Shown: positions 28,884 through 31,044 of the stretch, in pieces | How the letters are laid out: every line of letters begins with the position of its first letter | How positions within the stretch are numbered: the first letter of the stretch is position 1 | From: Spongiivirga citrea | GTDB lineage: Bacteria; Bacteroidota; Bacteroidia; Flavobacteriales; Flavobacteriaceae | DNA: 64,000 bases | Direction of reading: 5' to 3' | Assembly (NCBI RefSeq): GCF_010671565.1 | Contig: NZ_JAABOQ010000005.1 | Coordinates: 186,001 to 250,000 of the forward strand | Translations under genes and position numbers: made by a program | The notes under the pieces: generated by a model | What the model saw: only the letters and a program-made list of their open reading frames with translations | The model's database searches: none | What the model was told of the DNA's origin: nothing

Positions 28884-29639
28884 TTACGAGTTTTTAACGC
28901 GATTAATAAATTCTTGTGTTAAGGTATCCGCCTTCATTTCTTTTTTGAACGTGTCAAACGAATCGTTGAAAATAATGGAGCCTTTGTCGATGATAGCAAG
29001 ATCATCGCAAAGTAAATCTACCTCACTCATAATATGTGATGAAAATATCACGGTTTTATTGTTTTGTTTTGATTCCCGAATTAAGTCGATAATACTATCC
29101 GCGGTAATTACATCAAGCCCGCTAGTAGGCTCATCAAAAATCAGGACCTCAGGATCATGAAGCAATGTTCTTGCAATAGACACTTTTTGCTTCATACCAG
29201 TACTCATTTGGCCAATGCGTTTTTTTCGAAACTCATTAATACCTAGTTTTTCAAATAGATATTCCTTTCGCTCTTGAGCGGCGCCACTTTCTAGTTTGTA
29301 GACTTTTCCGAAAAAATCAAGGGTTTCATCGGCATTTAATCGTTCGTACAGTCCTGTCGAACCTGTTAAAAATCCGATGCGGCTTTTTACAGCATCTCCA
29401 CTTTTTCCTAGATCGACACCATCGACCACCGCGGTGCCAGAAGTTGGATTGATAATCCCTGCGATCATTCGAAGTGTAGTAGTTTTTCCTGCACCGTTTG
29501 GACCTAATAATGAGAAAATTCGACCCGGTTTGCATTCAAATGAAACATCATTTACTGCGTTGACAGTAGTGGTTTCGGTTTTCATACCCTTCTTTATTTT
29601 ACTAGTAAAGGACTTTGTTAAGTTTTGAACTTGTATCAT
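28884..29639 (-). CDS. natA: ABC exporter ATPase, NatA-like
   Basis: This 251-residue ATP-binding subunit shows Walker A GPNGAGKTT (about residues 44-52), the Q-loop region GFLTGSTGLYERL, the signature MSTGMKQKVSIAR, Walker B VLIFDEPTSGLD and the H-loop SSHIMSE. It powers the membrane permease encoded directly downstream. A TATTTTTG element (29671-29678 on the minus strand) is well placed as promoter. Confidence 0.93.
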   Translation of the reverse strand: MIQVQNLTKSFTSKIKKGMKTETTTVNAVNDVSFECKPGRIFSLLGPNGAGKTTTLRMIAGIINPTSGTAVVDGVDLGKSGDAVKSRIGFLTGSTGLYERLNADETLDFFGKVYKLESGAAQERKEYLFEKLGINEFRKKRIGQMSTGMKQKVSIARTLLHDPEVLIFDEPTSGLDVITADSIIDLIRESKQNNKTVIFSSHIMSEVDLLCDDLAIIDKGSIIFNDSFDTFKKEMKADTLTQEFINRVKNS

Positions 29640-29737: not shown

Positions 29738-29762
29738 AATGTCAGACTGAGCGCAGTCGAAG
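29738..29762 (+). repeat. Left 25-bp inverted repeat around the GIY-YIG gene
   Basis: This copy contains ACTGAGCGCAGT, itself an imperfect palindrome, and ends in CGAAG. It matches the reverse complement of 30100-30124 at 24 of 25 positions. It lies 16 bp before the first ATG of the GIY-YIG gene. Confidence 0.85.
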
Positions 29763-29778
29763 TCGTTAAAACAAACCG

Positions 29779-30095
29779 ATGTATCAATTTACGTCTACAT
29801 CTTAAAATGCTCAGATAACTCTTTTTATGCGGGAATTACCAATAATTTGTCATTGCGGTTTAAACAACATAATGCTGGATATAAAAAAGATTCTTATACA
29901 TTTTCAAGAAGACCTGTATCTTTAGTTTTTCATCAAGAGTTCAGTGATGTATTGCAAGCAATATATTTTGAAAAGAAAATTAAAGGCTGGACACGTGCTA
30001 AGAAACGGGCATTAATAGAAGGAGATTTTGATATGCTACAAATTTTGGCGGAATGTAGGAATGCAACCCACCATATTTATAAGCCTAACGAGTAA
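29779..30095 (+). pseudogene. GIY-YIG endonuclease gene with a one-base frameshift near the start
   Basis: The conserved protein is readable from 29790 onward: YVYILKCSDNSFYAGI carries the GIY-YIG core, followed by RRPVSLVFHQEFSDVLQAIY and FEKKIKGWTRAKKRALIEGD, the C-terminal pattern of the small UvrC-like nucleases. The natural start, ATG at 29779 (reads MYQF), is in another frame. One more T in the TTT at 29788-29790 would join MYQF to YVYIL and restore a protein of about 105 residues. In the intact frame there is no ATG, GTG or TTG before the conserved core, and the only later start (TTG at 29847) removes the catalytic N-terminus. So the gene is either broken, miscalled by one base, or expressed by frameshifting. 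Confidence 0.75.
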
Positions 30096-30099
30096 AGCG

Positions 30100-30124
30100 C
30101 TTCGACTGCGCTCAGTGTGACATT
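30100..30124 (-). repeat. Right 25-bp inverted repeat around the GIY-YIG gene
   Basis: On the plus strand it begins CTTCGACTGCGCTCAG and ends with TGACATT. It starts 4 bp after the GIY-YIG stop, and its last base is the first T of the queG TTG start codon. Confidence 0.85.
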
Positions 30125-31044
30125 TGAGTATTAAAGCGAAACATACCGCCCTAATAAAACAAGAAGCAAAACGCCTCGGTTTTTTGTCATGCGGCATTAG
30201 CAAAGCTGGGTTTTTAGAAGAAGAAGCGCCCCGACTAGAAAAATGGCTCAATAACAATATGCATGGCGAAATGAGTTATATGGAAAACCATTTCGATAAA
30301 CGACTAGACCCGACCAAGCTGGTCGATGATGCTAAAAGTGTTGTGTCTTTACTATTGAATTATTATCCAGAGGAAACACAAAATGAAGAAGCTTACAAAA
30401 TAAGTAAGTATGCATACGGTCAGGATTATCATCATGTCATTAAATCAAAATTGCGGCAACTTTATGAATTTATTCAAGATGAAATAGGTGAGGTGAGTGG
30501 TCGCGCTTTTGTTGATTCTGCTCCGGTGCTTGACAAAGCATGGGCAGTTAAAAGTGGACTTGGTTGGATGGGAAAACACAGTAATGTGCTTACCCAAAAA
30601 GTAGGTTCTTTTTATTTTATTGCTGAGCTAATTATCGATTTAGATTTGGAATATGATCATGCAGTAACCGATCATTGCGGTACTTGCACAGCATGTATCG
30701 ATGCATGCCCAACTCAAGCGATTGTAGAACCGTATGTTGTTGATGGAAGTAAATGCATTTCCTACTTCACGATCGAATTAAAAAATGAGATTCCAACCTC
30801 AGTAAAAGGGCAATTTGATGACTGGATGTTTGGTTGTGATGTATGCCAAGATGTATGCCCCTGGAATCGATTTTCAAAATCACATAACGAACCATTGTTT
30901 AATCCTAATCCTGAATTGTTGTCTATGTCTAAAAAGGATTGGGAAGAAATCACTGAAGATGTTTTTAGAAAAGTCTTTAAAAAGTCGGCTGTAAAGCGAA
31001 CTAAGTTTGATGGTTTGACCAGAAATATCAAGTTCTTGAAATAG
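30124..31044 (+). CDS. queG: Epoxyqueuosine reductase QueG
   Basis: QueG catalyses the last step of queuosine formation in tRNA, reducing epoxyqueuosine with cobalamin and two [4Fe-4S] clusters in the cytosol. The 306-residue protein shows the N-terminal corrinoid-reductase-like domain (with [13 protein letters not shown]), then the cluster ligands [12 protein letters not shown] and [11 protein letters not shown] (about residues 185-255). The start is TTG: an in-frame TGA lies 4 bp upstream, inside the right inverted repeat, and the first residues ([20 protein letters not shown]) line up well with family N-termini. The element upstream may have replaced the native start region. It converges on the LacI-type gene across a REP-like unit. 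Confidence 0.93.

Follow-up and report, generated by a model that had tools for sequence, protein, structure and literature searches.

A small nuclease gene lying between two copies of one repeat in opposite orientation, at positions 29738-30124 of the 64,000-nucleotide stretch of Spongiivirga citrea DNA analyzed here (the window), raises the question of whether gene and repeats belong together, and as what kind of element. REPs are very common bacterial repeats, and one of their two large superfamilies is reported to have no transposase of its own (PMC3733652). With a nuclease that matches the repeats by type and dose, the origin of REPs becomes open to direct test. It is fairly probable that the unit is a copy of a widespread minimal element, whose nuclease partners its own dispersed REP class as RAYTs do GTAG REPs. 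This would apparently be an undescribed kind of minimal selfish DNA, with a nuclease in place of a transposase.

Anatomy of the unit and repeat copies in the host genome

The unit and its neighbors comprise the following features, the REP positions being counted by hand:

29738-30124, no strand assigned: whole unit REP-nuclease-REP, 387 bp, flanked by divergent abcA and queG
29738-29764, plus strand: left REP, TGTC tag at 29740-29743 pointing outward; recognized by the inverted repeat and by consensus and stem co-variation
29778-30095, plus strand: GIY-YIG (UPF0213-like) nuclease frame, stop at 30093-30095
30098-30124, minus strand: right REP, with its outward-pointing TGTC tag at 30119-30122 on the minus strand
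28884-29639, minus strand: neighboring gene abcA, presumably an ABC ATPase
30124-31044, plus strand: neighboring gene queG, presumably an epoxyqueuosine reductase, divergent from abcA

A first-pass annotation had described two opposite repeats matching at 24 of 25 bases, with nothing but the nuclease gene inside, and both statements hold. The 25-nt arms (29738-29762 and 30100-30124), spaced 337 nt apart, are complementary at 24 of 25 positions, and the single frame between them encodes a GIY-YIG domain (PF01541, 65.6 bits, E 5e-18) as its sole Pfam match. A 23-mer core, at up to three mismatches, has two copies in the window and none in 100 dinucleotide shuffles. The left REP has the stem GACT (29745-29748)/AGTC (29761-29764), a GA bulge and the loop GCGCAG; the stem of the right REP (CACT/AGCG) pairs only partially. 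The same annotation had placed the repeats within 20 bp of the start and stop of the gene. The stop lies 4 nt ahead of the right arm, but no in-frame ATG, GTG or TTG was found upstream of the catalytic motif, and the ATG at 29779 belongs to a different frame. The left arm ends ~27 nt ahead of the first conserved residues. Because a standard in-frame start codon is missing, the window copy may be dead or decaying, or may use an unusual start; ATG and full length are found in 101 of 114 nuclease relatives, the window copy counted. On the other side of the unit, the queG frame has a TTG start at 30124, abutting the right REP, where the orthologue at locus L142 has ATG at the matching place; the unit thus reaches up to the very beginning of queG.

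The AlphaFold model of the nuclease (pLDDT 89.6) is nearest to the UPF0213 structures 1zg2 and 1ywl, then to Slx1-Slx4, a nuclease of branched DNA. Its GIY-YIG domain carries conserved Tyr, Arg and Glu residues, which we take to be catalytic, and it resembles the UPF0213 GIY-YIG proteins in both sequence and fold; no paper on the function of these proteins was found in the open literature searched, and they are not known to be associated with repeats. The nuclease is under purifying selection, with a dN/dS of 0.03-0.25 in 12 of 14 gene pairs; of the remaining two, a pair of near-identical genes has a value of 0 and the other an undefined one.

The host genome (4.15 Mb) contains the 16-bp core at 12 places (six exact copies, one with one mismatch and five with two), and the reversed core gave no match there. 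The repeat extends beyond the window unit. Nowhere else in this genome do two core copies lie close together as they do in the window, the next closest two being 6.8 kb apart.

Linkage of nuclease and repeats in the Flavobacteriaceae

The nuclease has close relatives (E<=1e-15) in 159 of 397 genomes of the family, a patchy distribution. Part of all places found was sampled, 111 loci with 114 genes in all: two loci of the host genome (the window gene and one more), a further 29 best loci, and 80 stretches fetched in addition. Of the places outside the sample, some lie at contig ends and some are unlisted. With a minimum score of 13 and a distance limit of 200 bp, inverted REP-like repeats bound 75 of the 110 genes with full flanks and are absent from the other 35; among control windows displaced by 900 bp, 2 of 223 are bounded in this way. 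UvrC-type GIY-YIG genes were unfit as a control, their match covering the gene start only. Nuclease genes are thus repeatedly bounded by repeats at differing loci, as the first-pass annotation had anticipated for a mobile unit, and its interpretation is supported overall. A chance origin of the inverted repeat is excluded by this test and by the shuffles of the window. Type A, B and b cores (defined below) are concentrated in the 100 bp next to either gene end, at 87 and 93 per bin versus at most 26 in any other bin. When copies from differing loci are aligned, their homology often stops 35-70 bp beyond the gene, close to the outer boundaries of the REPs; alignments of syntenic copy pairs reach further.

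Tandem nuclease genes ~750-1040 bp apart, some of them identical, were seen at L080, L127 and L130 and at two places in G013:C15; such pairs suggest recent local duplication of units. Other flavobacterial GIY-YIG genes with further flanking palindromes, of the kinds TCATTCCTGC...GCAGGAATCT and CCTGAAC...TTCAGG, were noted at L175, L178, L180, L184 and L168, and phage matches to the nuclease exist.

Units recur in a few conserved neighborhoods, which from their protein sequences we take to be the kynurenine operon, trmH-M48, ruvB-P450-queG and metG. Because many units sit in few such neighborhoods, with slots changing locally, they look largely vertically inherited, and movement would be rare at best. 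A very mobile element, considered as an alternative, is made less plausible by the many copies common to few neighborhoods. The nuclease lies just upstream of queG in nine loci, the window locus among them. Across genera, the unit occupies one of three slots of the kynurenine operon (L046-L103): KMO|RidA, RidA|ALDH or ALDH|SDR.

Clean empty sites in close relatives had also been expected of a mobile unit. Sites without the unit, or without a solo repeat, do exist, but they are found between species and genera, not between strains, and gain and loss are indistinguishable at them. The locus is not fixed in all relatives: L142, one of 29 queG loci from other genomes, has the divergent abcA-queG pair with neither unit nor repeat, its intergenic DNA being too diverged for the unit junction to be placed. 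In the kynurenine operon, the RidA|ALDH gap of L046 measures 13 bp and is repeat-free, and the same gap is filled in L047, L056, L058, L061 and L066. A solo A repeat of genome G364 corresponds to an 18-27-nt gap without repeat in all five aligned relatives; a sixth locus, of the same genus, is unaligned there.

Purifying selection, the conserved neighborhoods and a fold related to Slx1 are all compatible with a house-keeping role, in which a host repair nuclease resolves REP hairpins or cruciforms and the flanking REPs are kept as terminator or for autoregulation. Such a role would sit poorly with the patchy presence of the gene, with single genomes that carry several clades and differing REP types, and with slots that differ within one operon, and we regard it as distinctly improbable.

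Repeat type, repeat dose and hairpin structure

The proposed partnership of nuclease and REP class can be followed through five core types defined from the arms: A, to which the window unit belongs, and B, b, C and D. Both sides could be typed within 150 bp in 84 genes, 80 of which carry a single type, the other four being B/b mixtures; 7 of 114 genes have no typed core on either side. The tag points outward (head-out) in 64 of 84 nearest-arm pairs, the other 20 being otherwise oriented. When the left-side types of 93 genes are placed on the nuclease tree (FastTree, 99 columns, 8 of 109 inner branches strong), they require 14 changes; 200 shuffles needed 46.8 on average and never fewer than 39. 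REP type corresponds to nuclease clade. Of the 17 genomes from which at least two genes were fetched, 13 have more than one of types A, B/b and C (G207, for example, has A, B and C together), two have B and b, one has only B and one is untyped. The window's own genome holds eight exact type-B REP words, and none of its three small nuclease relatives is of type B; these are orphan repeats.

The exact type-A 16-mer is present in 137 of 397 genomes and the type-B 16-mer in 159, the reversed controls in none. Cognate REP abundance follows nuclease presence, as seen in four groups of genomes; a further 91, whose nuclease belongs to a different clade or was not fetched, stand outside these groups. 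The REP counts include the flanking copies. Genomes with clade A only (21) average 10.8 A-REPs and 4.5 B-REPs; those with clade B only (41), 2.0 and 10.7; those with both clades (6), 19.7 and 20.8; and those without a close nuclease (238), 0.62 and 1.29. A-REPs are present in all 27 clade-A genomes, at a mean of 12.8, and exceed two in 25 of the 27. In genome statistics that ignore kinship, A-only and B-only genomes differ in A-REPs at p 1e-7 and in B-REPs at p 0.04, the latter contrast being weak because clade-A-only genomes still average 4.5 B-REPs. Exceptions to the dose relation include G199 and G338, with 31 A-REPs each, in which a clade-A gene was not found.

Dose also bears on the idea that a RAYT or IS200-type transposase spreads the REPs and that the nuclease gene landed between two of them by accident. 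A Y1 transposase match is present in 157 of 397 genomes, and Y1-positive genomes overall average 3.23 A-REPs versus 1.35 in Y1-negative ones. Within clade-A genomes, however, the mean is 12.81 with Y1 (n=16) and 12.73 without (n=11). None of the 31 Y1 loci inspected (the best 30, probably mostly IS200-like, and L053, the one weaker, RAYT-like match in the sample; some loci end at contig ends) contains a REP core of the five types, even out to 1.5 kb. A Y1 transposase, whether RAYT or IS200, as driver of A-REPs is therefore unsupported. The matching of nuclease clade and REP type would also lack an explanation, and CGTC repeats are reported without transposase gene association (Di Nocera 2013, PMC3733652). 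An accidental landing is thus very improbable.

The 240 distinct REPs with an exact core share the consensus TGTC-A-NNYY-GA-GCGSAG-TC-GA-RRNN, with an exact TGTC tag in 210. Co-variation defines the hairpin: the four outer stem pairs are 94-96% Watson-Crick, with several pair types each, versus 32-50% when partners are shuffled, and the position next to them is unpaired (31% versus 40% shuffled). Single-strand folding of five REPs was predicted to be weak (z -1.18 to 0.45); given such low stabilities, REP pairing may need a protein or negative supercoiling.

REPs also occur as doublets. Twenty dispersed head-out B doublets, hand-picked among the matches listed and not a census of all copies, were found with a search word that fixes part of the stem (NNTC/GANN). 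They measure 58-81 bp, and all 20 combine one GGTC/GACC arm with a differing second arm, which is exactly CCTC/GAGG in 15. Among the ends of units, too, CCTC with GGTC is the most frequent combination, at 17 of 56 in either order; the asymmetry is not general, since GGTC stands at both ends in 14 of the 56. Thus, the doublet looks like the unit minus its gene, by analogy with what REPINs are to RAYTs.

These common end types can also be read in terms of homing, in which the nuclease cuts gene-less REPs or doublets and repair from an intact unit copies the gene in, so that the unit is a filled doublet. GIY-YIG is a known homing family according to PMC3943268, and between L034 and L035, loci of two species, the nuclease and a few hundred bases downstream (~1400-2000) are 96-100% identical versus ~85-95% for the flanking genes, like a conversion tract. 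This tract is clear in one of seven syntenic pairs only, none as clear being seen in the other six; the unit-free sites L142 (abcA-queG) and L046 (RidA-ALDH) are without a REP of the scanned types, and the arrival of solo REPs at REP-free places would be left unexplained. Free-standing homing endonucleases of the I-TevI type (PMC3943268) likewise consist of a small nuclease gene possibly favoring its own copying, but possess an elongated DNA-binding region for which the window nuclease (105 aa) is too short, and the inverted-repeat ends set the present unit apart. Homing is, on balance, an unlikely account, though a less improbable one than accidental landing or a house-keeping role.

Proposed mechanism and relation to known REP systems

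For the favored reading, a nuclease that partners its own REPs, type matching points to recognition of the REP by the enzyme, and we infer that nicking or cutting and mobilization are also its work. The nuclease would bind the TGTC-tagged, bulged hairpin of one REP strand and nick near the tag; once released or copied, a REP, a REP doublet or the entire unit might then be fixed elsewhere through host replication and repair. GIY-YIG enzymes activate water for hydrolysis, as stated in PMC3943268, and because they act by hydrolysis, rejoining would have to come from the host.

RAYT/TnpA-REP pairs and REPINs (Nunvar 2010, PMC2817692; Bertels and Rainey 2011, PMC3116915) are alike in having a gene between inverted REPs, a correspondence of enzyme and REP types, cognate REP abundance that tracks the gene, inverted doublets as non-autonomous forms and a 4-base tag beside the hairpin. 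They differ in their enzyme, an HUH (Y1) tyrosine transposase in place of the GIY-YIG nuclease, and in the tag, which is GTAG according to PMC3733652 and predominantly TGTC here. The first-pass annotation had called the unit unlike RAYT-REPIN pairs; this characterization is overturned, as most of their organizational features are reproduced with an unrelated enzyme, and the unit can be read, by analogy, as a RAYT/REPIN-like system built on that enzyme. No link between GIY-YIG nucleases and REPs was found in print in the open-access literature, searched by titles and the starts of abstracts, most subscription papers lying outside it.

Another known system that comes close is the CGTC REP superfamily, which includes the Neisseria dRS3 repeats. 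PMC3733652 describes these REPs as having an 8-9 bp stem, a 4-5 nt loop and a CCA tail, with dimers prevailing and CGTC changed to TGTC in many repeats. An unpaired CGTC or TGTC tag at one end and a palindromic stem are common to both groups, whereas the flavobacterial REPs have a bulged 4+2 bp stem and a loop of 6, without the CCA tail. UPF0213-like nucleases could be the missing enzymes of the CGTC/TGTC superfamily in Bacteroidota and Proteobacteria, a proposal we hold to be evenly balanced between right and wrong: a second, independently evolved REP/REPIN system in which a hairpin-specific hydrolytic nuclease and host repair operate with no transposase. If so, REP systems would be possible without a transposase, by convergence with RAYTs, and a function would be suggested for the UPF0213 family.

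Proteobacterial loci bear on this proposal. Among ten plasmid genes, taken from 45 matches, four of the five from alphaproteobacteria lie between inverted repeats, which in Sphingobium (L228) form a perfect 31-bp pair of CGTC type; none of the five betaproteobacterial copies is flanked. A search with a Sphingomonas nuclease found 42 named, mostly proteobacterial loci, 39 of them with full flanks. When the gene end is capped at 258 bp, a limit introduced after seeing the data, 23 of 39 are flanked versus 3 of 75 control windows, and 16 of 39 are unflanked; the initial count of 13 of 39 versus 3 of 75 had overlooked arms inside the matched stretch of some Sphingomonadales. In ten of these genomes, chosen by the authors, 20 of 29 places with GIY-YIG genes are flanked versus 1 of 58, counting 230-bp flanks from the domain match, several places repeating loci of the 39-locus test. 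By eye, the arms of L228, L285, L293 and L299 resemble canonical CGTC REPs.

In Sphingomonas loci including L239 and L279, the nuclease frame, as annotated or matched, takes in the right REP at its 3' end, so that some of the tail of the protein seems to be encoded by the repeat.
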